Assembly: GCF_032854445.1 (NCBI RefSeq)
Contig: NC_088295.1
Coordinates: 22,679,385 to 22,743,384 of the forward strand
Direction of reading: 5' to 3'
DNA: 64,000 bases
From: Liolophura sinensis
Lineage: Eukaryota > Mollusca > Polyplacophora > Chitonida > Chitonidae
The position numbers and the translations under genes were made by a program. This document shows positions 18,674-62,526 of the stretch, piece by piece (position 1 is the first letter of the stretch; every line of letters starts with the position of its first letter). The notes under the pieces are model-generated. The model was given only the letters and a program-made list of their open reading frames with translations, was not told the origin of the DNA and ran no database searches.

Positions 18674-21585
18674 ATGCATCGTCTGAGAATATCTGTTAGC
18701 GCTACTGAGTACAGCAGGCTGTGTGTGGAATATCTGAAGCCTCATGTGCTCATCCAGTTGGGTGGCATTCGCCTGAGACACGACAAACTGTTCCGCTTGT
18801 TAGAAACCATGCCAAAAAAGGTGGAAGGTCCACGCGAAACCTTACGTCATGTAAAGTACAGGGCGAAGCGAGCAGAAGGCGGCCATAAAATGCCAGCACC
18901 TTCACGAATTGATGTTCATGTAGTAGGCAGTGGTGCCAAAGGAAATCCCAGATCTTTGGTTATATCAACAGATTACTCCAGGTACATGTATAAGGTCTAT
19001 AGATATAATATGTATATGTACATGTATAAACTCTATTCTACCTCTCTCATCAATGGCAGTGTGGTCGCTGTGAGTTCAAGTGCAGCTCATGTTGGCTTTC
19101 TTTCCGGTCATACTAGGAAAGGTCTTCCAGCAACCTGCAGATGGCCTTCGGTTTGCGGACAGTCCTTGAAACTCAAATGAAAATACAATTTCATTTTCAA
19201 GTACTTGAAATTCCTTAAGAAAGACAAATACACCTGAAAACTCCTTGAAAATCTTAGTTTGTCCCAAACTTAAATATTGTCTGCTGACCCCAGATTCTGT
19301 ATATCTGGAGCTTGCTGATAATTCTCCCATAATCTCAGCTTCCGCTGGCACTCAACATTGTCGCAAATTTAGAACAGTTTTTTAAATTGGCGATAAAATT
19401 TGAAAAAATGCTAATGTTTTTGGCGACAAATTTATTTACTAAGAAAAAATACAAACGTTATACAAAATCTACCATGAGAGTTTTTCTGGGGTTTTTTGCA
19501 GATTTTTGTAATTTTTCTTATGAAAATAATCCACTTACTTTCATTTCAAACAGCCTCATCTCGACAAAACAAAAACAACACAGTTGTTTGGTGATTACTT
19601 GACAGAGATCTACAAAGGGGGTTCAGCATTGTTGCAAGTTGATTTACATTAAATAATGCTTGAAATCATTTTTCTTAAATAACGAATGAGAATCTTGTCA
19701 TTTTAGGGGATGCCTTTCATTGCCAGTTGTAAAGGAAAAAAGTATCAAGGGAAATAAATCAAGATAGAGTTACCTCTGTAAATGAAGTTACATCCCATGA
19801 AAAATTTAAACTTTTCCACTTTTCCAAATTATTTTTTTTTTTGGGATCCGAAGTAAATTAAATTTTTCAGAATATGTGCCGTTACATAAATGTGTACACC
19901 GTCTGGTTTTCTCCTGTCAGACTGTTATTCCAGTATACTGATCATAATGTTGCATTTAAATAAACTGAATGTACAAATTAATTTTATAGCAAATTTTTCT
20001 GATAGAGGAAATTACATTTTACTAGGATCCTACATATAGGTTGAAAACAGGATTGATTGTTTTTTTCTCAAAAAACAAAAACATGCAGCCAAGCATTGGT
20101 CCATTATTTTGATGGCAATTGTTCTAAATGTAACGTTTGATAAACTCCAGATATATCCGGAAGAGACCAAACTGATTCTAGCAGCTACACCAAGGCAGAT
20201 AAAAGTGAATTACAGAAGGAGACCTATAAGCAGCCAAGCATTGGTCCATTATTTTGATGGCAATTGTTCTAAATGTAATGTTTGATAAACTCCAGATATA
20301 TCCGGAAGAGACCAAACTGATTCTAGCAGCTACACCAAGGCAGATAAAAGTGAATTACAGAAGGAGACCTATAAGAGTCATGGCTGCTAAGGAAGTATGG
20401 CTAAAGAAAAATAGTATTTACAACAACATCTGATGAGTGACTAAAGTGACTGGCTAAAAAAAATACTGACTCAGAGGAAGCCCTTCATAATGATATATGG
20501 CGTCATTTTTTTTGACTGAGCCAAGGCCAGGTCAAAGAATGTGTTACATCACAGAGGTGAAGGGCAGATATTTCTTGCAAAAGCAAGCATGCTATTCAAT
20601 AGATATGCATGCAAATTACAACATCTATAATTCAGACTTAAAATATAGTCTATAATTTGCACCATGGTATGTTTAAACTAGCCTTGAAAAAAACAAAACT
20701 CCTGGAAAACTCCTTGAAATCTCCTTGAAAACTCCTTGAATTTCATTTTCATATACCTGTACGAACCATGGCTCTGCCCGATTTCCTCCCACCATAATGT
20801 TGGCCACTGTTATATAAAGAATTATTCTTGAATATGGGATGTAACACACTCATCAAATAATCAGGTCATTTATATTCTTATCTAGCTCCATGGTCTGATG
20901 TATGGCATTATTGTGTTATTCTGATTTGACACCTGGGAGGAATATGAGCCAAACTTGCTCTGTAGGGCTGTGATTACGTATACTATCGCAGTCCTGTCTT
21001 GTTTTCATAAGTTTACCTTGAACAGCTCTGTACTTTCCTTGCTGGCATTTATATACTACTGCTGGGCACCAAATAATTTGTTTGCACATAGTCATAGTGG
21101 TCTCAGCTGTCAAATCCAGGTAGGTGTTCCCATGTGTCATCACTAATAAATCCACACAGGCATGGAACTAGTGGAAACTGCCGTGTTTGAATGCATGTAA
21201 TAATGTAAACACTAACAGGTGTTATATTCGTGCCAGTTGACACAGTGTAAAATCTGAAAAGCAGAAAAGCGGCCAGTGCAGTACACACCCAAGATGTAAC
21301 CAACACCACTGTGCTCCTGAAGTTATGCCAGATCGATAGGACCCTTGATTCCCATCTGGCAGCTTTTCAGATTGTGCTGCTATTTCTTGTGTTTGGTCTA
21401 GAACCACAGTAAATGCTTCTGTTCAGTTTTGAATTACCAAGGTGAGGACCATGAAGGTAATGGCATTCAGAAGTTAGTCAGAGTCAGATGACACTTTGCA
21501 AAATCTTTCATTTGCAGTCAGATGATGTTATACCAAGTATGTTTCATATTCAGATATCATCACTGAAGTCTGTCAAAGTAAAAGA

Positions 21586-27600: not shown

Positions 27601-30600
27601 TATACATGTATATTTAACAGAGTGTTAAACTCCATGAAAGTGAAAGTAGTTGAGATCCATATCAAATTAACCAATCAACGGGAGGTGCTCTTTTCCCATC
27701 CTGATAACAGGAAGGGGCTGGTAGCCAATGTAAGCGTATGTTCTGTTAAATCAGTCGGATGTAAGGTCTCATTGCTTAAATGTATGTCAGACACTATTAA
27801 TAATTTGTTAATCTTTTTTTATACTTTGTCAGAACCTGAGGAGCCCTCCTACCCTGAGGTGATATTTCTGGGCACTGGTTCCTCCATACCATCCAAAGTT
27901 AGAAATGTCTCCTGTATCCTGGTACAGACAGAGTAAGTTTGATCTTTGTACTGCAAAGCTCTTCAAATAATATTTTACCTGAAGAATCATCCGGGAGTAG
28001 ATTGACACACCACAGCAAGCTACAGATACAAGGATTACAATAACTGCTGTAAGAAATAAAGCCATTCACCTGACAGCCATAGTCTTAGTTTTAGTATTTG
28101 CTATGATACTTCACTGGTGACAATTTTTGTGAATATGCTTGCTTATTGGTGCTTATTTGTTGAAAGCTTTTAGTTTATTTAGTTCACCATATGACCTGTC
28201 TATAGTTGTAGTCAATATCTGTGATCGATGTGATATCAGTGGCATAAGCTGACCATTATACCGTGATTTCCCATGCTTTCCGTGGCCATAGAGTTGCTCT
28301 TTAGGTCTAAGTGTCAGTTTGTTACATTGTTTCAAACAGGACAGGTACATGTTGCTGCACTGTGGAGGGGCACTACAGTCAGAGGCTGGAGAATCTCACT
28401 GCTGAATTTGTCTATGTTTGAGACAGGACAAGTACATGTTGCTGGACTGTGGACGGGCACTACAGTCAGAGGCTGGAGAATCTCACTGCTGTGTTTGTCT
28501 ATGTTTCAGACAGGACAGGTACATGTTGCTGGACTGCGCACGAGCACTAAAGTCAGAGGCTAGAGAATTTCACTGCTGTGTTTGTCTATGTTTCAGACAG
28601 GACAAGTACATGTTGGCTGGAGAATCTTGCTGCTGTGTTTGTCTTTGTTTCAGACAGGACAGGTATATGTTTCTGGACTGTGGACAGGCACTACAGTCAG
28701 AGGCTGGAGAATCGCACTGCTGTGTTTGATTCAGACAGGACAAGTACATGTTGCTGGACTGTGGACGGGCACTACAGTCAGAGGCTGGAGAATCTCACTG
28801 CTGTGTTTGTCTATGTTTCAGACAGGACAGGTACATGTTGCTGGACTGCGCACGGGCACTAAAGTCAGAGGCTAGAGAATTTCACTGCTGTGTTTGTCTA
28901 TGTTTCAGACAGGACAAGTACATGTTGGCTGGAGAATCTTGCTGCTGTGTTTGTCTTTGTTTCAGACAGGACAGGTATATGTTGCTGGACTGTGGACAGG
29001 CACTACAGTCAGAGGCTGGAGAATCTCACTGCTGTGTTTGATTCAGACAGGACAAGTACATGTTGCTGGACTGTGGACGGGCACTACAGTCAGAGGCTGG
29101 AGAATCTCACTGCTGTGTTTGTCTATGTTTCAGACAGCACAAGTACATGTTGCTGGACTGTGGAGAGGGTGCACTAGGACAGCTGTATCATCATTTCGGT
29201 CAAAGCGTGGGAGATATACTGGAGAATCTCACTGCTGTGTTTGTCTCTCATATGCATGCAGACCATCACCTGGTAAGAGATTCTTTGAAACATCACATAC
29301 AAATTGCAGATTTATACAGAAATACTTTACTTTTCAATTTATCCATGAAAGTTTAGGTAGGAACAGCAAAAATCAAAATGGGAAATCATAACATAAACAG
29401 TGGTGAATAATCATCTTGTTGATCGCTGCCAAATGTTTTGTTTTGGCCAGCATTTAATTTTTTTGGTGATGTTTTGGTTTTTGTCCAGATAAAGCATATC
29501 TTGGCTTTAAATTGCTACGTATGCATTTACATGTACAGTTAGAGTAAAACTGTAACAACTGACATAATGCCGTATTTTACTATCACTGTCACTGCTCTGA
29601 TTTTACTCTCTGTGCTATACTTTTTTATGTTATCTCTTCCATTTTATGTATGTTTTTGTCATTGCTGTGGTATTTTATGCTATAAATTCTTGTATTTTAC
29701 TCAGGTGCCTTATTGTTTGCTCTTCTCATTCATTTGGCTATTTATTTTTGCAGGGAATGTTCGGCGTGTTGGAGGCTCGTAAAGAGGTGCTCGAGGCTCG
29801 CGGTAAACCTCACACCCCAGTGCTATTGTTAGCACCTATACAGATGACAAGGTGGCTCAAATTTTACAGTCAGCAAATCAAAGAATCACATAGCTATATC
29901 AGGTGAGCTGCAGTGATTCTGTTACAGATGTCAAATGACACATATACTCTTGATGGATGTAAAATGACAGGTGAACTGGAATAGATGTAAAATAATACAT
30001 ATTACATTTTGGTGTGGAAATGGTTTCATGCACTGTATACAGGATGGGGTACAAGGAAAGTATCTGGCTCTGTTACATTTGTTACACCTGTAATATGCTG
30101 CCTGTCTGCAGACTGGTGGCCCTTCAGGACTTACTGCCTCACCAGCTAGACAGGACCCAGACGATGTGTAACGCTGTACTAGAAGAGACCGGACTGCGTG
30201 AATTCCTACCTGTGATGGTGGAGCACTGCAAAAACGCATTTGGTGTGTGTCTGACACATCAGCGTGGCTGGAAGTTGGTCTACTCTGGAGACACCATGCC
30301 CTGTAACAGGCTGGTCCAGGCAGGTAAATTAACAACCCATTTCTGGTTTCAAGATTACCGAAAGATTGTTGATTCAACAAATATTTTGTTGCCAGAATTG
30401 GTTGTTAATCAGTTACCTATTTAACTATACGAGATATTAACCAGTGTATCAATTATGTAATGTTGTGCGTTTTTGTTTCATTCAAAGTTGCCACTACTTG
30501 AACCTTGATCCGTGTATGTGATTTCAACATTTTTATCTTTGTGTGGTGGATGTTTTGTTCTGATGATTAAGATCTTTTCATTTGGGACCATTTTTAAATG

Positions 30601-32795
30601 GTAAAAAGCTGAGTGTTCATTTGTTCACGAGTTGTTGATCTGTGTGTTTATTCAGTTTCATGAGTTAGTTGCTGTTTTTGGTCGGTTTGCTTTTTCATGA
30701 GATGTTGCTGTGTGTATTTGTTCAATTTCACAAGTTGACGCTCTGTGTGTGTGTTGCTGTGTTCGTATATTTTCTCAAGATGTTGCTGTGTTTGTACAGT
30801 TTCACGAGATGTTGCCGTCTTTGTACATCTTCCCTGAGATGTTGCTGTCTTTGTTCAGCTTCACGAGAGGTTGCTGCCTTCGTTCAGCTTCACAAGATGC
30901 TGCTGTCTTTGTAGAGTTTCATGAGATGCTGCCGTGTTTGTACAGTTTCACAAAATGTTGCTGTTTGTACAGTTTCATGAGATGCTGCTGCCTGTACAGT
31001 TTCACAAGATGTTGCCGTGTTTGTAGTTTCATGAGATGTTACTGTGTTTGTACATTTTCATGAGATGCTGCTTTCTGTGTACAGTTTCACAAGATGTTGC
31101 CGTGTTTGTAGTTTCATGAGATGTTGCTGTGTTTGTACAGTTTCACGAGATGTTGCCGTGTTTGTAGACTTTCATGAGATGTTACTGTGTTTGTACATTT
31201 TCACGATATGCTGCTGTCTGTGTACAGTTTCACAAGATGTTGCCCTGTTTGTAGAGTTTATGAGATGTTGCTGTGTTTGTACAGTTTCACGAGATGCTGC
31301 TGTCTTTGTACAGTTTCACGATATGTTGCTGTCTTTGTTTAAAGGTGAGGACTGTGACCTGTTGATACATGAAGCCACGATGGAAGATGACCTGGAGGAG
31401 GAGGCCAAGTACAAAACACACAGGTAACACTGATGATTGTCTCTATGGCCTTTTGCACATTCTAATGTTCGTTGAAGATCACAGGCTTTCCATTATTATG
31501 GTGTGCAAGTCTGTCACATGTGGGAAAGTTTATAGTAACTTTCCAGTGGTCAGTGGTTTTCTCCAGGCACTCAGGATTCCTCCACCCATATAACTGACCT
31601 CTTGAGTATGTTATTTTAAGGATTAAGATCAGACCACATATCTGCTAACAGTTGTGTAACATACTTACATAAACCAGTCTAATCCGCTACCTCTGGTAAC
31701 CCGAGATGACAAACAAGAAGACTGCGACATCACTCAATACTGACAATCAGTGCAGGTTTTTCAAACTGTCAAAAGGAAATCCCAGCTATGTCATTTATAA
31801 GAGGGGAGGATAAGAGCCCCATTCACTAATTGTTTTGGACATTGCTAGTAGCGTTGTAATTTAATTAACATGTACTTTTAATAAAAGGTTTGCCTTAAAA
31901 GCAAACTCATAACTACCTATATCTTTGCTCTGTATTTGGACCAGTACAACCTCCCAGGCCATTGATGTTGGAATCAGGATGAAAGCCAAGTTCATCCTTC
32001 TCACTCACTTCAGTCAGCGCTATTCCAAGATTCCAGTTTTCAACGAGAAGTTCACAGATAAAGTTGGCATTGCCTTTGACAATATGAGAGTACGTGGTTC
32101 CATTTTTACGGCTAGAAATACACGTAGTACAACTAACGTTTGTTGACACGAGATTCGTCTAAAAAGGTATCATCCTTTAGTGGGATATTTGATTTAATCT
32201 GAACAGTGTTTAATTGAAACTAGTAAAAATGCATGCGTTCACACGACCATGTGGCCAAGCCGGTTATAAGCGAGTTCAGTGATTTGACCGTTTATAGGGT
32301 CACATTTAAGCTGGTTTAGTTATTGCAATGTCATCCTGACCTCCACATGTCCTGGGCATTTGATCTAGTTACCATTCACGTCACAGATAAACCAACCTGA
32401 AAGTAGTTGAAAGCCACATCACTAGCTGGGGCAAATAAACAAGAAGAAAATTCATGCTAAGAAGCAGAATTGCGCATTACATGTTTGATGGAGTATTGAT
32501 AATGAGAAAACCATTTGATGGGTGATTTTCAGTACATCATTATTATTGTCTGTGTGTGTGTCTGTATTTAATGCTGCCATATACTAGGTTTTGTAAGTGA
32601 CTTTCTGTTGTGCTTTAGGTGAGTCTGAAGGACTTGAGCACCTTACCACTGTTCACACCAGCACTAAAGGCCATGTTTGCTGAGGAGTATGCCTTACTGG
32701 AGGAGAAAACCTTAAAAAGAAACCTGAGCAAGAAAAGGGTTGCAAATGATTCTCAGAAACTAATGAAAGACTTTTTAACAGAAAGTAATTCATGA
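18674..32795 (+). CDS. ELAC2: ELAC2, long-form tRNase Z (3' tRNA-processing endoribonuclease)
   Basis: 21 exons: 18674-18981, 21725-21775, 22093-22163, 22444-22508, 22889-22946, 23173-23316, 23676-23752, 24341-24399, 24613-24673, 24854-24905, 25178-25337, 25624-25765, 26478-26560, 27251-27366, 27833-27932, 29134-29272, 29754-29902, 30112-30323, 31345-31423, 31945-32089 and 32619-32795. All phases agree, giving 815 aa; human ELAC2 is close to 826. The enzyme cuts the 3' trailer from nuclear and mitochondrial tRNA precursors. The N-half is the inactive metallo-beta-lactamase copy (NCGEGTQRI at 107-115). The C-half is catalytic: GTGSSIP 496-502, PSKVRN 502-507, zinc motif SHMHADHH 554-561, SGDT 670-673, HEAT 691-694 and HFSQRY 730-735. 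Met1 (MHRLRISV) precedes a basic N-terminus. Met46 (MPKKVEG, 18809) could start a form lacking it, like the dual mitochondrial/nuclear starts known in the family. An earlier in-frame ATG lies at 18569. Introns 15 and 18 carry the arrays listed separately. Confidence 0.96.
19050..20864 (+). mobile_element. SINE split by a 1.6-kb insertion in ELAC2 intron 1
   Basis: 19050-19165 carries the middle of the SINE (GTGGTCGCTGTGAGTTCAAG to CCAGCAACCTGCAGATGG). 20757-20864 carries the matching 3' remainder (GGCTCTGCCCGATTTCCTCC to AACACACTCATCAAATAA). The two halves join with almost nothing lost. The roughly 1.59 kb between them is therefore a later insertion into a pre-existing SINE. Each edge of the insert carries repeated CTCCTTGAAA words and a TTTCATTTTCA segment in the same orientation, suggesting short terminal direct repeats. 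No coding potential is seen inside. Confidence 0.7.
20086..20375. repeat. 145-bp perfect-register tandem duplication
   Basis: 20086-20230 and 20231-20375 both begin CAGCCAAGCATTGGTCCATT and end GAAGGAGACCTATAAG. I find a single C/T difference (GTAACGTTTG versus GTAATGTTTG), so the duplication is recent. It lies within the insertion that splits the intron-1 SINE. Confidence 0.92.
21589..21643. repeat. (TA)n microsatellite in ELAC2 intron 1
   Basis: About 27 uninterrupted TA dinucleotides, ending about 80 bp upstream of exon 2. It may form cruciforms and is likely length-polymorphic. Confidence 0.97.
26264..26414 (-). mobile_element. SINE 3' fragment in ELAC2 intron 12
   Basis: Minus-strand copy starting at the tail TTATTTATTTGATTGGTG and ending inside the body at GAGAGGAAGCCAGCC. 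The head and A-box are absent. There is a deletion after GGGCAGAG. Confidence 0.82.
26920..27170 (+). mobile_element. Diverged SINE in ELAC2 intron 13
   Basis: From GAGCCTCCATGGGCGAGGG through CTTCCTCTCCAGCGGTAAGT to ACACCAATCAAGTAAACAAG. Divergence is high, and part of the 3' region (ATAATGCTGGCCG) is lost. It ends about 80 bp before exon 14. Confidence 0.78.
28336..29133 (+). repeat. Tandem array of exon-16-derived units with repeated splice acceptors (ELAC2 intron 15)
   Basis: Ten units begin with ACAGGACA(A/G)GTA(C/T)ATGTT at 28336, 28423, 28510, 28597, 28654, 28735, 28822, 28909, 28966 and 29047. Their lengths are 87, 87, 87, 57, 81, 87, 87, 57, 81 and 87 bp. The authentic exon 16 follows at 29134 as the next repeat start. 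The full unit joins the first part of exon 16 (encoding YMLLDCG) to a later part (CTGGAGAATCTCACTGCTGT, encoding LENLTAV) and ends in TATGTTTCAG or ATTCAG, a 3' splice site. About 50 bp of the exon are missing inside each unit. Blocks 28423-28734 and 28735-29046 form a near-identical 312-bp higher-order repeat (87+87+57+81). Confidence 0.95.
30620..31341 (+). repeat. Minisatellite of about 29-32 bp units abutting the exon 19 acceptor (ELAC2 intron 18)
   Basis: About 20 units on the pattern TTTCA(C/T)GAGATGTTGCTGT followed by GTTTGTACAG. The last one reads GATATGTTGCTGTCTTTG followed by TTTAAAG, and the final AAAG is the real acceptor of exon 19 at 31345. Many units thus present a pyrimidine-rich run plus ACAG, which matches a 3' splice-site consensus. 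Copies vary by small indels, some ending TGTAG or TACAT. Confidence 0.9.
31530..31612 (+). mobile_element. Truncated copy of the second SINE-like family (ELAC2 intron 19)
   Basis: CCAGTGGTCAGTGGTTTTCT and the following GGATTCCTCCACCCATATAACTGACC resemble the 3' third of the 17383-17578 element, ending at TCTTGAGTATG. Confidence 0.5.
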
Positions 32796-49088: not shown

Positions 49089-52000
49089 TTATGTGAATTC
49101 TATAGATTTCGCTTTGACTGGTTTAGGAACTATTTCCGAGTTGCACACATTTACATGGGCTTCTGACTTAGCTGAGTTTTTGTTCATACTAGCTGAGTAC
49201 TGTGTGTAAGTCCTGTACACCTGGTCAGGTTGCCATAATTCATCCATGTCCGGGATGAAGGGGTCTGGTGCAGTGATATCCAGGTGTTCCAGGCCACAAT
49301 CTGTAATCAGCCTATAGGAATGCAGCATCATCCTGTAAGGTTCTGTGTCAGTTCTGTCAGTATACGTGTAATCTCCTATGATAGGATAGCCAATGTGTGC
49401 ACAGTGAACCCGCAACTGATGGGTCCGTCCTGCAAGAAAATACCACCTCGGCATTAAATTGTCATTTTTGTTTACAGTTGCTTCAACTTCATTTTAGGGA
49501 TCATGACTGGCTCTTCAAATAAAGTGTAAAGGCCCCTCCAGACTATCCAACATTGTTCAACTTTTGTTGACTCAACAGTAAGTTGAATGCTGTTGAGGTA
49601 AGTTGTGTGTCCGGTCCACACTACAAATCAGATAGGTCAACATTGTCCAACTGTGTTGTCGTGTGTTGAGCTGTGTTTTTTTTCCAAACATGCGATAAAT
49701 TCTCCTGGCTATACACCTGTATCAACTCCTGTATCTTGAGACCAGTTTCTCTCTTTCGCCTTTGGCACCGCCATTCAACTTCAAGTTGACTCTTGTTGAG
49801 TCAAAAAAAGTTGAGTGATGTTGGGTAGTCTGGACTGGGCTTTACTCTCACAGCAGCTGATCCTTTACCCATGAGGAAAGGGGTTCTTCTGCACAGCAGC
49901 TGATCCTTTACCAATGAGGAAAGGGGTTCTTCTGCTTCTTCAAACTTTTTGTACATGTAACTAGTATCGCTCTACATGCATGAATTGGTTCTTCATCAGA
50001 AGATGTTTATGGATTTTGCAAAATCCAATATGGACAACAACAAACTATGTGACCAAGAAGAACAAACTTCAAAACTGTGACAGATTACATCCACAAGAAT
50101 TTTGCTGACAAATTTCAACCAGCTGCCATGTGGAGTTTTCTAGAAAATGATAAAAAGCACTGGCTGTCCGTAGGGAATTTATCTTACGAGCAAAAACAAT
50201 AGGCTTCTACCTTTCAACTTCAAACCTAATAAGTGAAACAGCTTGACAGTTGCAGTAAGCCAGCAATTTAACAGTTTTAACCAGTAAGGGTAAATTTTGT
50301 ACCTTTATAAACCCATAATGTGAAACATACCTACCAGTTATACTATTGTGAAAAGGGAGCAACGAGTACTTCCACATCCCATAAATGATAAGCAACCATT
50401 TTTAATATCTCTAATTTGATCAAAATTGGCCTACAGGCAACATGCATATTAGTAACATGTATACTAAAATCAGGCTTGCCATGTCTGATGGTAGAAAGAT
50501 GCTTCAGTGAGGCAACTGTAATATGTATACAATAGTACATACATATAACAGCATAACCCTTGGGTTGGGGAAAGCAGGATGGGGTGGAGCTGATGTGAGT
50601 GAAACAGGTTTAAATGCTACAGAGGAGATCAACAAAATTACAAGTACATGTGTGAGCATGTAGAAAGCAGAGATTTACAGACACACAATAGTTCAGACAT
50701 ACATGTGTATTTATTTCACTGAGGGTTAATGCTGTGCACAAGAATTTTTCATTCTATGACCATGTTCAGGTTCAAGGGCTTCACACCTCAGTACACCAGC
50801 ATATATAGTTACTGACAGCCTAGCTCAAAAATGTATAGATAAGCAAAATTTGATTGTTTTGCTTTATGAAAATCTTAACCTTCGACGTATACATGTAGAT
50901 GGACGGGATGACTGCATGTCAGGGGGTGGGGAAGGGATGACTGCATGTCAGGGGGGTGAGGGATGACTGCATGTCATGGGGGTGAGGGATGACATGGTTA
51001 AACACACAGAGAATGTTTATAAACACCATAATGAGTGACACACTGAAGATAAACACTTATGTGGGTAACACACAGAGAATCACCTAAGTCAGTAACAGAT
51101 GGGAGACTTACCTGTGTAACAGAGAGAATTGCCACAATGAATGACACACTGGGGGAAACACTTACCTGGTTGGCACATGTGGGATAAACACTTACCTGGT
51201 TGACACAGAGAAAATCTATACAATGAGTGACACATAGGGGATAGACACTTACCTGGATGCCACAGAGAGAATCCCCACAAAGAGTGACACAGGGGGATAA
51301 ACACTCACAATGTACCTGGGTGACACAGGGATGAGTAACACAAGGGGGATAAACACCTGGGTGGCACAGAGAAAATCATCACAATGAGTGACACACTGGG
51401 GCAAACACATGGGTGGCACATGTGGATTAAACACTTACCTGGGTGACACATACAGAATCCCCACATTAAATGGCACACGGGAGATAAGCACTTACCTAGA
51501 TGACACAGAGAGAATCCCCACAATGAGTGACACACGGGAGATAAGCACTTACCTGGTTGACACAGAGAGAATCCCCACAATGAGTGACACATGGGCATAA
51601 ACACTTACAATGTACCTGGGTGACAAAGAGAGAATCATCACAACGAGTGATACACGGGAGATAAGCACTTACCTGGGTGACACAGAGAGAATACCCACAA
51701 TGAGTGACACACGGGAGATAAGCACTTACCTGGATGACACAGAGAATCCCCACAATGAGTGACACATGGGCATAAACACTTACAATGTACCTGTGTGACA
51801 CAGAGAGATTCATCACAATGAGTGACACATGGGAAATAAACACTTACCTGGGTGACACAGAGAGAATCACCACACTGAGTGACACATGGGAAATGAACAC
51901 TTACCTGGGTGACACAGAAAGAATCCCCACACTGAGTGACACATGGGAGACAAACCTGGGTGACACGTACAGAACTCTCACAATGAGTGACACACACGGG

Positions 52001-54595
52001 ATAAACATTTACCTGGGAGACACAGATAGGATACACATGTACCCGCATGAAAGAGCTAGGGGGGTGGAGGGGATAAAATTCTCTAAATACAGAAAAACTT
52101 AAATATTTATATATTAATATTAAATATTTGTTTGAAGGAGGGGGAGAAGAAGAAAACTGTTGCTTAGGAGAGAGGAAGATAAGTGCCAATTATTTTACCT
52201 CAGAATAACTAAACACACATTTACCTGTATGTGGCAGAAGCAGCAGTTTTGTGGCTGGTCTGCCCCCATACTGACCCGTTTCTAATCTAACCAGAGTTGT
52301 TTGTGCCGGGCGGGGACCTTCACAGTGTGGAGAAGCTGGCGTACACATCTTGTGGAAGGATAAGCTCCCATCTTTACCAAGTGCCTGATCAACTTCCATC
52401 TTGTCAACCTGAACATGCCCTCTAACCTAAAGCAAGGTGACACACCAAACATTTTGATTAGAGAGTCACTTGGCACCACTGTTTTCATGTTTGGTACAGA
52501 GCTAATCTTTCTTTCTTTTTCATTTTGAAAGGATTAAATGACCATGGTTTAACGAGAGGAGCAACTGAAAATTTTATACAATAGTGTACTCTATGAATGG
52601 GCTGGAATTAATTTCTATTTTGATAATTCATTAACAATAAAGAAATAAAGCCGTTATCCAACAGCACTGATAGGGTCAACACTACTATAATTTTACAACT
52701 TCTCCTAGCTTGATGTCTATAAAGTTTATGATGAGAAAAAACACGAAAAAAAGAATGGAAAGGAATGTACTGGATTTGAACCCTAGACTGCCAGGCATCA
52801 TCTACAATTGGATACTATCATAGAGAACAGGCGGCTTTAATCTTCTGATGATAGCCTAGAACAAAAGACAGAAGAATACATTGTTGCAGAGCTGATCTGA
52901 ATCCTAAACTGCCAGACATCATTGACAATTGACCAAGTACTAAAGACTGGCATATAGATTAAGCAGCTTTGATCTTCTGCTGATAGCCAAGGACAAAGTT
53001 TCATTCAGTCTAGCAAGAAGCTCCCGTGTTTGACAATTCTGTCAAATTTTTGTTGGTTTTTTGGTCAAAATAAGAAAACAACACAAAGTACAAAAATAAT
53101 TCTTGCAGATTCGTAATTATGAGTCAAAATATGCCAGATGCTGTGTTTGTTTAATGATTTTAAGCTTTTTAAGATGAAAAGATTTAAGATTTTAATGGTT
53201 TTAATAACTGACCCACTTTTGAGCCATGTTCATTGGTCAGTTTTGGATTTATTTGCATAGCAAACAAAAAGCTTTATGCAATATGGGTAGGGCATTCCAC
53301 TTAAAAACTGTAAACAAAGAGTTTATCTCAATAGGTGTAGCCGATATTGCAATTTTACGACTTGACGAAGGATAATAATAGTAATAAAAATCCGAATGAT
53401 TTTAAGAGGTGTCACGTTAGGATACCAGCGCGGACCCCTAATAACAATATTTGTATACATGGTACATATGTATGACAGAACAGACTAATAACATCACATC
53501 ATCATGACACAGTCATTGGATTACTACTAAAACAAATGGTGAATGATTCTGTACTCAAGGTGCAACTTACTAGTGCCAGATAATGTTTGACAACATTACG
53601 ATCAGCAAAGGCCTTGTGCAGATGTTTGGCTGCTTTCTTATTTAGGGACAAACATAATACTCCACTTGTAGCATAATCCAAGCGATGGGTAAATCTGCAA
53701 AAAAAAAAATAAAGTCTTACAGATATTTTTGAAAAAAGCTGTCTATGCTTCAAAGGATGGGTATGAACACTATACAAATGCTCAGTACTTCAATTAGGAA
53801 GCTCAAAAATCTCTCCATTTTGGCGTCTGAAAGTTTTCAGCCAACATTTTAGGCGTAGATTTGTGGAAAAGTGTGAAGGCGCAAGTTAAAGACTGTATTC
53901 AAGCATGTTTGCCATTGCCAGACTTTAGTAAGTGGTCAAAGTTTCAGGAAAGGGAGGCAACTAGACAGGGACTAATGTGAACTGGTCGGTGGGCATGGGA
54001 GGGTGTGTGAGGGTGTGGGGGGATATGGAGAAATGGTAGGGGCTTGTATATATGTTGACATGTGTGAAATGGGGGCTGAAGATGAACAAGGGCGTTCTTT
54101 GCCCTGCCAAAGAAAGAATTCTCTGAAACAATGTGCTGACTGGCAAGGGTGGGAGGAGCACTGAGTGATCAGGTTATCAATTGATAACGGAGTGGTGGAG
54201 AATGGAGAGGTCTGGGGGAGGAGGGGGATAGACTTGGATTCCAACACATATCTGTCAATTACACTGGCACAACAGTGTCAGATCAAATGTAAACTGGTTT
54301 TTGCACAAAAAGTTTTGCTGGAATATAGCTAACCTACCAACACCAGATTTTGACCCAACAAAGAGGAAGAGTGATGAGGTTTAACTTCATTAAATGTTTC
54401 AAACAATGAAATGACATACCTAAAGCCATGTTTTACTTTTGCATCTCTTAACTCAGGGAATGTAGCATTCAGTTGACTCTCCACTGTTACTTGGGTCCTA
54501 TCATCACTGTTGATGGAGATATCCATGTCCTTGTTGACAGCTAAGTAGTTAGGACTACGGTATAATTTCCTTACTAGGAGTAGTGGTCTTGCCAT
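49089..54595 (-). CDS. RPUSD1: RPUSD1, RluA-family RNA pseudouridine synthase domain protein
   Basis: Four coding exons on the minus strand: 54595-54420, 53694-53571, 52426-52225 and 49429-49089 (stop). Phases agree, giving 280 aa; human RPUSD1 has about 312, with a longer C-terminal tail. RluA enzymes isomerise uridine to pseudouridine in RNA. The catalytic Asp is D65 in HRLDYATSGVLCLSLNK (62-78). The C-terminal motif [20 protein letters not shown] starts at 168, and YRMMLHSYRL follows. The order, and the DPFIPDMDELW segment after it, fit RPUSD1 better than RPUSD2-4. An acceptor (TTTCAG) 17 bp before the ATG shows that a 5' UTR exon lies upstream; I could not place it. Its RNA target is unknown. 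Intron 3 (2.8 kb) holds a MITE and a 57-bp array. Confidence 0.94.
49527..49844. mobile_element. MITE with roughly 50-bp terminal inverted repeats (RPUSD1 intron 3)
   Basis: The left end TAAAGGCCCCTCCAGACTAT and the right end read in reverse (TAAAGCCCAGTCCAGACTAC) match and continue through CCAACAT...CTCAAC or TTCAAC and TTGACTCAACA. The element is 318 bp with no coding capacity. The terminal TA may be the target duplication. The interior also contains further TTGAG and CTCAA words, giving extra self-complementarity. Confidence 0.85.
49851..49936. repeat. 43-bp tandem duplication
   Basis: CACAGCAGCTGATCCTTTAC followed by CCATGAGGAAAGGGGTTCTTCTG appears twice in succession, with one C/A difference. 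It lies directly beside the MITE. Confidence 0.9.
50908..50992. repeat. Short G-rich tandem repeat
   Basis: GGGATGACTGCATGTCAGGG recurs three times at about 30-bp spacing with varying G runs. It is in RPUSD1 intron 3. Confidence 0.85.
51040..52040 (-). repeat. 57-bp minisatellite carrying a repeated donor-like sequence (RPUSD1 intron 3)
   Basis: On the coding (minus) strand each unit contains CCAGGTAAGTG or a close variant, which matches the 5' splice-site consensus. The plus-strand form CACTTACCT occurs near 51159, 51189, 51247, 51433, 51490, 51547, 51667, 51723, 51842 and 51899. Spacing is mostly 57 bp, with 63-bp variants and one 30-bp step. The common unit reads GAGTGACACACGGGAGATAA then GCACTTACCTGGGTGACACA then GAGAGAATCCCCACAAT. 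Long open frames run through it on both strands because the unit is a multiple of three. I regard these as by-products, not genes. Confidence 0.92.
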
Positions 54596-59700: not shown

Positions 59701-62526
59701 GGGCTGTTCTGTCACAGAGGTAGTGGAGCCTGACAACGCACAACCCACCCCTGTTGTCAGCTCTAAACGTCAACCCCCACCCAATGACCCTCCAGCTAAT
59801 AACTCAACAGATGATGGGTTAGTTCTGAGATTATTCATGTGTGATTGCCTGTCTGATTAAGTAAATGTACAGAACATTTTATACCAGTTTATTTACATAT
59901 GGCAGTATTTCAGACATATTTTATTAAAGGACTAATGTCATGGCATTGCTGCTAACTGGGGGGAAATATACATCTCGCCATCTTTTTTATTTTATTTCAG
60001 TGAAAAGTTTTAAATGTTACGGGATGTTTCATTGTTTATTTTCTGTGTGCATACTAATTACTCCCAATTACAAAATTCACAGCTTAGTATTTTGGTGTGG
60101 TTTCCTCCCACCATAATGGTGGTTTTTGACAGAAATTGTACTGTACAGGTGACCTTTTGTATACCTGAAGCTAAGGAATGCCCGGAAAGACCTTACAGAT
60201 CACTGAATAGTACAGATAGAGCCACATTTGCCTGACAGGTCAAAATGGTGAATAGGCTTAAAATCGACAACACTTTGGGTTTGGAGACTTTATCAGTCTG
60301 CGCAGAATAAGCTTGAATAAACATTTTGCCAACAAGCAAAAAGGTTGAATAATTACGGTATATTCGTTATTGTGTGCTTTGTTAGAGAATATCTATAGTT
60401 TAGTTCCAGGCTGTTGAAATAAAGTCTGTTGATGTCCATCTGATAGAGAAAATACAAAATTGGATTTGCATTTATTTGTTCAGATGGGTTATTGATTTCC
60501 ATTGATTGCTGTAATCATGAGTATTTCTGTTTGGTTTGCAGAGACCGTAAAGTGTACCAGGCTGACTCAGAATGTTATAACGGAGCAGTGCGTGACACTT
60601 ACAGCTGGTCACAAACCATAGCCGACTGTGATATCAGGGTGAAGGTAGGTGTGCCCTAAAGTACAGCTCACACTTATAGCTGGTCACAAGCTGTAGTAGA
60701 CTGTGATATCAGGCTGCAGGTAGGTATGCCCATAAGTACAGCTCACACTTACAGTTGGTCAAAACCCACAGTGGACTGTGAAATCCAGGTCAAGGTAGGT
60801 GTTTCCATAAGTACAGCTCACACTTACTGCTGGTCACAAACCTTAGCGGACTTTGATATCAGGGTGAAGGTAGGTGTGCCCATAAGTACAGCTCACACTT
60901 ACAGTCGGTCACAAACCTTGGCTTCTTTCAGAGGCATTTAAAGCACATTTAAGGCACAAACCGTAACAGACTGTGATATCAGGGTCAAGGTAGGTGTTTC
61001 CATAAGTACAGCTGACACTTACAGCTGGTCAAAACCCACAGTGGACTGTGAAATCCAGGTCAAGATAGGTGTTTCCATAAGTACAGCTCAGACTTACAGC
61101 TGGTCACAAGCCAATGTGGACTGTGATATCAGTGTGAAGCCAGGTGTGCCCATAAATATAAATCACTTGTACAGCACAAACCAGCATAATGTGTTTGGCT
61201 GACTGTAACAGTAAGTACAAATATCTGCTACATTTGATCATAAATGAGCATACATTGCGATATCAGGGTCACTGTTCAGCAGCATGTAGCTACAAATCTC
61301 CTCTCCATCTCCTCTACACAACTATTTCCAAGGCCAACATAATAATGATGTAAAATCCTTGAAATATCCTGAAGCTTTTGCAACATTAAGAAGAAAATGA
61401 AAACTTTAATAATTTGTTGATCTAAAATAGTTAGCTGAGTTGCTCAGCCTTTCCAATTGGTACTCTATACTTCAGGTACCCAAAACTGTCAAGAAAGGTG
61501 GATGTGTGAAGGTGAACATAAAAAAGAAGTATTTGAGTGTAGCTTACAAGGACAGCCATAGTGAGTGGGTACAGGCCATGGACGGACCTCTAACCTGGGA
61601 CATCAAAGTGGAGGAAGCTATTTGGAGCTTGGTACCAGGAGAACACATACATGTGAGTTCAAAGATCCCATTTAACTAACTAAATAATTGTATTATTGTC
61701 ACAGATTAAGTTTTGTGGAAAGCCTGCAAGAACTGATGTTAACTTGTTCTTGTTTTAACAGATTAACCTGGAAAAGGTTCAGGAGCGCTGGTGGGATGCA
61801 GTGCTGGAAAATGAACCCAAGATAAACGTGAGACAAATAGATGCCAGTCGACCATATACAGACTTAGATGAGGAGTCTCAAGCAAAAATCTCAGAGATGA
61901 TGTACAATGAGCAGCAGAAGAGACTGGGCCTGCCACAGTCACACGAGAAGGTAAGACTGTGGCTTTCTGTTGTGGATACCGTGATACTCTGCGTTTAATA
62001 CAAGTTCATTGGGTTGTCTGGAAAATTAGCTTGTTACATATAGAATGAGATTTTCTTGTTTTGGTGGAATCTGACAATTTGCGATGCTGTCTACATTTGT
62101 CAATACACAGTAGATTGTAATGTTGGCCTTGGTCCAGAAATTTTTAAATTCCCCGGCATGCACTGTTCATGGAGGACTATTTGTCCTCCACAAATATCGT
62201 GTGCATATTTGTACGTGACTAGTGGGAAAGTTTGTCAGTCAAAGTTCAGTGGCTTTTACCTTAGCGACACTGATTTCCTGTGTCAATAAACCTCAATGAG
62301 TATGGCATTAAACAGTCAAATAAAGAAATAAATTGTATTGTATTAGTGATGTATGAATTATAAGGATTTTAATAATGTGTGATATGTGTTTTTTTAATAC
62401 TTCTAGAACACCCATGAGATGCTGAAGAAAGCCTGGAATGCTAAGGGTTCTCCATTTGCTGGGCAGCCATTTGACCCTTCCAAAATTTCAGTGGACCCAT
62501 CAGGAATGGTCAATATTAACTCTTAA
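56767..62526 (+). CDS. NUDCD3: NUDCD3, NudC-domain (CS domain) co-chaperone
   Basis: Eight exons: 56767-56879, 58391-58472, 58966-59047, 59640-59817, 60542-60644, 61476-61652, 61762-61950 and 62407-62526 (TAA). Phases agree, giving 347 aa; human NUDCD3 has about 361. The N-terminus (DPALLGILQNEGQISTFLDV, then FLYRRTDFF) is the conserved NUDCD3 dimerisation segment. Residues 66-93 form a charged helix. Residues 93-150 are an acidic, proline-rich linker. The CS domain starts near residue 168 (TYSWSQTIADCDIRVKVP) and runs through the WSLVPGEHI and ERWWDAVLENEPKI segments. The C-terminal MYNEQQKRLGLPQSHE and DPSGMVNINS are typical. The family works with Hsp90 and stabilises dynein intermediate chain. 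Intron 5 holds a 75-bp array derived from exon 5; intron 1 holds a SINE. Confidence 0.96.
57868..58122 (+). mobile_element. SINE in NUDCD3 intron 1
   Basis: From GGGCCTCCATGGCCAAGTGG through TTTTCTCACACCATGAATTG to TGACTATCGCACAAAAACAC and an ATATATAAATAA tail. AATCAAATCC on the left and AATCAAGTCC on the right may be a 10-bp target duplication with one change. Confidence 0.82.
59255..59362 (+). mobile_element. Decayed SINE-like tail in NUDCD3 intron 3
   Basis: AAATGTGGCATAAACCTCAA followed by TCAAGGAAATAAATAAATA keeps only the 3' end plan of the SINE families. The upstream body is not recognisable. Confidence 0.45.
60595..61165 (+). repeat. 75-bp tandem array made from the exon 5 / intron 5 junction of NUDCD3
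   Basis: The unit is the last 50 bp of exon 5 (ACACTTACAGCTGGTCACAA to ATATCAGGGTGAAG) plus about 25 bp of intron (GTAGGTGTGCCCATAAGTAC, then AGCTC). Unit starts are at 60595 (in the exon itself), 60670, 60745, 60820, 60895, 61015 and 61090. Spacing is 75 bp, except one 120-bp interval that carries an extra 45-bp insertion. Most units retain an AAG|GTAGGT donor and a CTTACAG acceptor-like word. The unit is a multiple of three, so the encoded TYSW...DIRVK motif stays in the exon 5 frame. Confidence 0.95.
62120..62332 (+). mobile_element. Possible SINE-like remnant in NUDCD3 intron 7
   Basis: It ends with CAATGAGTATGGCATTAAAC then AGTCAAATAAAGAAATAA, the shared tail plan (GTATGGC-TTAAAC-TCAAATAAA). 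It also contains a short hairpin, TGGAGGACTATTTGTCCTCCA. Confidence 0.5.

Follow-up and report, generated by a model that had tools for sequence, protein, structure and literature searches.

Results

The catalytic exon of ELAC2 is preceded by a minisatellite derived from the exon itself

The window, i.e. the whole 64,000-nt stretch of Liolophura sinensis DNA that we analysed, harbours part of the chiton version of ELAC2, a gene of tRNA processing. In good agreement with the gene assignment made in the first-pass annotation, the exon that encodes the catalytic SHMHADHH motif matches human ELAC2 structures together with its two neighbours (best E = 3e-38). The locus is organised as follows.

Positions 27833-27932, plus strand: upstream ELAC2 exon, 32 aa, its start read from TTTGTCAG; donor GTAAGT at 27933; matches human ELAC2
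Positions 28327-29133, plus strand: exon-derived minisatellite of ten units of 87, 57 or 81 bp, eight of the ten with TTTCAG or ATTCAG
Positions 28336-28422, plus strand: unit 1, preceded by TTTCAA and lacking an acceptor AG; in-frame TGA at 28403
Positions 28423-28734, plus strand: units 2-5, which make up the first copy of the higher-order repeat; TGA in frame at 28727
Positions 28735-29046, plus strand: units 6-9, which make up its second copy; TGA in frame at 29039
Positions 29047-29133, plus strand: unit 10, with the same sequence as units 2 and 6; its acceptor, if used, would add 29 aa in frame and without a stop
Positions 29134-29272, plus strand: authentic ELAC2 exon, encoding SHMHADHH; donor GTAAGA at 29273
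Positions 29219-29246, plus strand: exon stretch encoding LENLTAVFV, which recurs without mismatch in units 2, 6 and 10 and gives them branch-site-like and pyrimidine-rich sequence

The tandem array lies within the intron, directly 5' of the exon, and begins at approximately position 28327. Its ten units measure 87, 87, 87, 57, 81, 87, 87, 57, 81 and 87 bp, and at the start of each the exon's 5' end is reproduced almost unchanged, as had been described. The further proposal that the units join the start of the exon to a segment of its second half is likewise borne out: the 3' parts of all ten match exon stretch 29219-29246 with 89-100% identity over 28 nt, the match being exact in units 2, 6 and 10, and little of the exon middle is left. 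The exact 28-mer occurs four times in the window, always at the ELAC2 locus, and not at all on the window's other strand. When aligned to the exon, full-length units correspond to its first ~113 nt minus most of the middle, followed by a 9-nt intron-like tail, ATGTTTCAG; the 57-bp and 81-bp units carry further deletions.

A higher-order repeat of 312 bp is made up by units 2-5 and again by units 6-9, and the two copies agree at 309 of 312 positions. Units 2, 6 and 10 are identical to one another, as are units 4 and 8, while units 3 and 7 share 98.9% and units 5 and 9 share 97.5% identity; across the array, divergence between units reaches ~16%, and they also vary in their internal deletions. 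Every unit has a best partner at 97.5-100% identity except unit 1, at the edge of the array, which is 86-93% identical to all others (93.1% at best). It is on this lack of a close partner that we base our description of unit 1 as a diverged edge, because in the pairwise table the mean distance of unit 5 to the other units is about the same as that of unit 1. Dispersed elements and introners have related copies at many genomic places; all five genome matches of the 312-bp block at E <= 0.001 fall at the ELAC2 locus. The block is therefore not a dispersed element as far as this DNA search, which can miss very common words, is able to see.

Serial acceptor-like sites in front of the authentic acceptor

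The alignment of units to exon and the acceptor sequences agree with the earlier view that the array derives from the exon and carries serial acceptor-like sites. However, not every unit follows TTTCAG or ATTCAG, as had been claimed: eight of the ten do (six TTTCAG and two ATTCAG), and the exceptions are position 28336, which is preceded by TTTCAA, and position 28423, which is preceded by TTTGAG. If the nearest AG were used at 28336, the exon would begin 4 nt later and out of frame. From -20 to +3, the acceptors at 28510, 28597, 28822 and 28909 do not differ from the authentic one at 29134. These five sites also share a CTCAC or TTCAC with 24 nt from its A to the exon; judged by the same short branch-site consensus, the spacing is again 24 nt at 28423 and 18 nt at 29047, and no match precedes 28336, 28654, 28735 or 28966.

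Much of the region upstream of the authentic acceptor, including the branch-site-like CTCAC, is a copy of the LENLTAVFV coding sequence. The suggestion that the authentic pyrimidine tract is former coding sequence is correct up to GTTTGTCT, but the last 9 nt, ATGTTTCAG, probably do not derive from the exon. This tail resembles the unique sequence to the left of unit 1 (TTGTTTCA; longer stretch CATTGTTTCAA), and TTGTTTCA is found again where units join. It is best read as an intron tail, with the left flank CATTGTTTCAA probably marking the ancestral intron end, although the exon's own ATGCAG (aligned as ATG, three gap positions, CAG) could have been its source.

Could the serial acceptors be used in a regulated way, either to produce ELAC2 isoforms or to titrate output via nonsense-containing transcripts? 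Apart from the four decoys that equal the authentic site from -20 to +3, such a role would suit the fact that all upstream unit starts are in frame with the exon, their offsets being multiples of three, and that the acceptor at 29047 opens a stop-free reading frame. On the other hand, the in-frame TGAs at 28403, 28727 and 29039 interrupt every upstream choice except 29047, and the 29 aa added there would duplicate a 10-residue stretch before the catalytic core. The preserved frame, moreover, is no general property of such arrays: of the seven other boundary arrays that we describe below, three have a unit length divisible by three (66, 60 and 75 bp) and four do not (80, 109, 65 and 47 bp), which rules out divisibility by three as a selected feature. 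We regard regulated use as improbable, if the least improbable of the alternatives to our preferred reading.

The donor at 27932 is most likely still spliced to 29134. This acceptor yields an exon of 139 nt, the alignment of which to human ELAC2 needs no insertion; with the upstream choices the exon would grow by 87 to 798 nt. Length on its own does not speak against 29047, because the resulting 226 nt would also be an ordinary size; the shorter pyrimidine tract at this site (GATTCAG) may weaken it. With 29 additional residues the protein still matches lactamase profiles, the match being about as weak as that of the normal form, a comparison that has no bearing on activity. What counts against splicing at the last acceptor is that the local 3' splice-site sequence gives no reason for ignoring four identical upstream sites.

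Boundary arrays recur in the window and in sampled loci

A second boundary array is found elsewhere in the window, at the donor side of another gene.

Positions 60542-60644, plus strand: NUDCD3-like exon (CS domain); donor GTAGGT at 60645; best structure match KIAA1068 (E = 1.8e-25), which we take to be NUDCD3 under another gene name
Positions 60595-61155, plus strand: boundary array of ~75-bp units containing the 3' end of the NUDCD3-like exon and its donor; six copies, GT intact in four of the six

The frequency of such arrays was estimated outside the window in 21 proteasome loci (21 of 21 matches), 28 CCT/Cpn60 loci (of 50 matches) and 26 DEAD helicase loci (of 49 matches). A boundary was scored as copied when a 50-mer across it had another copy within the ~3-kb locus; by this measure, the ELAC2 boundary 50-mer has nine copies at its locus. 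Boundaries were predicted without RNA, using approximate consensus weights. The first set comprised 95 of the 98 boundaries of 49 loci, with both boundaries of L029 and the donor of L050 left out as belonging to terminal or long exons and the donors of L035 and L044 set by hand. The second comprised 47 of the 52 boundaries of 26 loci, with both boundaries of L057 and L059 and the donor of L060 left out as long-exon genes; the acceptor of L063 was set at 1502 instead of the predicted 1479 (copies are present either way), and for L058 and L062, the matches of which are interrupted by stops, the analysis was confined to the longest core free of them.

Copies were detected at four of 95 boundaries in the first set and two of 47 in the second, i.e. 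6/142 (4.2%; 95% interval 1.6-9.0%), a rate that must be taken as rough because it comes from three conserved families only and from predicted boundaries. Five of the six arrays are at donors (L026, L035, L043, L046 and L077) and one is at an acceptor (L063); with copies at 5/70 donors versus 1/72 acceptors (p = 0.11), we claim no donor excess. The splice dinucleotides are intact in 3/5 copies at L026, 10/10 at L035, 4/5 at L043, 6/6 at L046 and 7/12 at L063, as well as in all 15 copies listed for L077, which has at least 15. L063 parallels ELAC2 in that its units contain a DEAD-box exon start (AAFLLPVL, with T-rich hydrophobic codons) behind an acceptor-like site. In a shuffled-letter control on the sampled loci, to which the ELAC2 locus does not belong, 0 of 147 gave a match at the boundary-copy threshold. 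Small as the sample is, these numbers suggest that boundary arrays are common in this chiton.

The same loci provide the background against which this rate is to be read. Copies were present in 260/3425 non-exon windows of the first set (20/49 loci) and in 141/1828 of the second (13/26 loci), together 401/5253 (7.6%), a count in which some windows figure twice owing to overlap of sampled loci; within exons of the first set (49 loci), 7/196 interior windows had copies. Tandem arrays with a period of at least 15 cover 7.4% of the sampled loci (being present in 33 of 75) and 6.9% of the window. Taken together, the eight boundary arrays (the two of the window plus the six sampled ones) might at first sight speak for a mutational process aimed specifically at the exon-intron boundaries of this genome. 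We hold this to be about as improbable as regulated use: since nearby non-exon windows carry copies at 7.6%, against 4.2% at the boundaries (two-sided Fisher p = 0.15, boundaries lower), the boundaries are not apparently targeted. The boundary arrays seem to be a side effect of the genome's richness in minisatellites, from which splice sites are not exempt.

Several other repeats adjoin or approach exons and were considered separately. Two candidates were rejected as boundary arrays, as neither contains a boundary copy. The first, at 30752-31338, is a 29-bp array of ~20 copies with TTTGTACAG in its units; it reaches the acceptor of an exon with first base 31345, presumably a later ELAC2 exon by resemblance, and its last unit supplies the pyrimidine tract of that acceptor. 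The second, at 51174-52026 on the minus strand, is a ~57-bp array rich in CAG|GTAAGTG donor-like sites that lies ~200 nt past a predicted donor, in an intron assigned to a pseudouridine synthase gene. At 20085-20375, a 145-bp stretch is present as a tandem duplicate with 99% identity. The CCT exon of L044 has arrays on both sides, with 41-bp units running up to the acceptor and ~43 copies of a 27-bp unit following the donor; neither boundary was scored as copied in the 50-mer test. Short CCT exon matches were also seen inside open frames of 458-779 aa (e.g. C1:72038329-72039651 and C6:51811805-51811960). These frames are much longer than the matches and may run on through adjacent intron sequence.

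An assembly error in the array or its higher-order copy is unlikely, and is the least probable reading that we considered: the two 312-bp blocks share 99% identity and the same assembly contains a mitochondrial concatemer (seven COX1 copies ~15.5 kb apart on contig C99 of 108,685 bp; contig C632, of 15,209 bp, has one), but the ELAC2 units diverge by as much as a sixth and differ in their internal deletions, the same architecture is present at other loci, and the HiFi reads of the published Liolophura assembly, according to the available part of its description, have a mean length of 8,347 bp at 14x coverage (PMC11068029), ten times the length of the array, so that single reads could span its 0.8 kb. 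The species of that assembly has been corrected by its authors from Liolophura japonica to L. sinensis (PMC12441733). A lancelet origin of the DNA, to which the literature on mirages had pointed, was rejected: the order of the mitochondrial genes looks molluscan, and neither a GFP family search nor one with lancelet fluorescent proteins gave a match in the genome, a weak negative in that the control genomes of the GFP family search gave none either.

Discussion

In this study we have dissected a minisatellite that has grown out of a catalytic exon and now stands between this exon and the rest of its intron. With a probability of roughly 0.85, we conclude that the ELAC2 array arose by tandem duplication across the intron-exon boundary, in the manner of the 'mirages' of lancelets, followed by unequal exchange, and that splicing normally takes place at the last acceptor. 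We infer the following order of events. A tandem duplication would have fused a site within the exon (~29246, after GTTTGTCT) to one located shortly before the 3' end of the intron, possibly helped by a short T-rich sequence (GTTTGT) that the two sites share. This junction sets exon-derived T-rich codons before the intron's own TTTCAG, which is why most units come with an acceptor already in place. The upstream copy would then have become intronic and, free of coding constraint, lost most of the exon middle. Multiplication and homogenisation by unequal exchange presumably followed, with the 312-bp four-unit block as the latest step.

In both acceptor-side cases, ELAC2 and L063, the former hydrophobic codons make up the pyrimidine-rich sequence of the unit. 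More broadly, the gene bodies of this chiton may make minisatellites freely, such that thousands of genes would contain rows of near-identical competing splice sites, among which the right one is found by exon definition over local strength, the whole having arisen independently of lancelets; on this wider proposition our judgement is evenly divided. Because four decoys equal the authentic site from -20 to +3, the ELAC2 locus amounts to a natural test of 3' splice-site selection beyond local sequence. If the rate of 6/142 holds genome-wide, this chiton offers very many natural splicing experiments and material from which introns could be gained and boundaries shifted, and mirages are no peculiarity of lancelets.

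The ELAC2 array had been called unusual, an assessment that we do not share: mirages are known in lancelets, and boundary arrays recur both in the sampled loci and in a second gene of the same window. The available parts of chiton genome papers, that of the assembly (PMC11068029) included, make no mention of such arrays, and no boundary array from a chiton or other mollusc was among the matches listed in our literature search, which covered titles and abstract openings, mainly of papers outside subscription journals, and was only in part specific to chitons or molluscs. The kind of array is thus already known, while its host and apparent frequency may, as far as we found, be new.

Several other systems share single features with the ELAC2 array. 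A human minisatellite with multiple splice donors reportedly places serial splice sites in one gene, their use in a transcript being indicated by the title of the report; the likeness lies in the serial sites and the difference in their being on the donor side. In the potato RdRp gene, a tandem duplication over an intron-exon boundary included the branch site, pyrimidine tract and 3' splice site (PMC4974935). Both cases duplicate the boundary; however, in the accessible part of that report potato shows one duplication that made a new intron, with no array described, whereas the ELAC2 array lies within one intron. Internal tandem repeats in human segmental duplications include variable boundary minisatellites that may form introns (De Grassi and Ciccarelli 2009, PMC2812944). 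They differ in concerning primate paralogues with variable exon or intron length, and what is available of the paper describes no exon fragments piled up before one conserved acceptor. In C. elegans, minisatellites reportedly lie close to exons that are alternatively spliced (PMC4039745).

The closest relatives are the lancelet mirages, known from Adh3, the globins BflGb6 and BflGb9, troponin C and PGBD5. The accessible sections of the papers describe them as minisatellite-like duplications of boundaries with AG or GT in many units, homogenised on the inside with the edges excluded, and in Adh3 and the globins regular splicing is reportedly undisturbed (PMC3087553, PMC3902484). As far as these sections allow comparison, the ELAC2 unit similarly spans the boundary, with an intron-like tail, mostly an AG, and the 5' part of the exon. 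Many but not all ELAC2 units keep their splice signals (eight of ten, with one TTTGAG and one without AG). Just as in the globin mirages so described, the inner units are homogenised and the edge unit 1 is excluded from this process; the edge on the exon side, unit 10, is not. The chiton array differs from the lancelet mirages in its molluscan host, in the loss of most of the exon middle from its units and in its 312-bp higher-order repeat.
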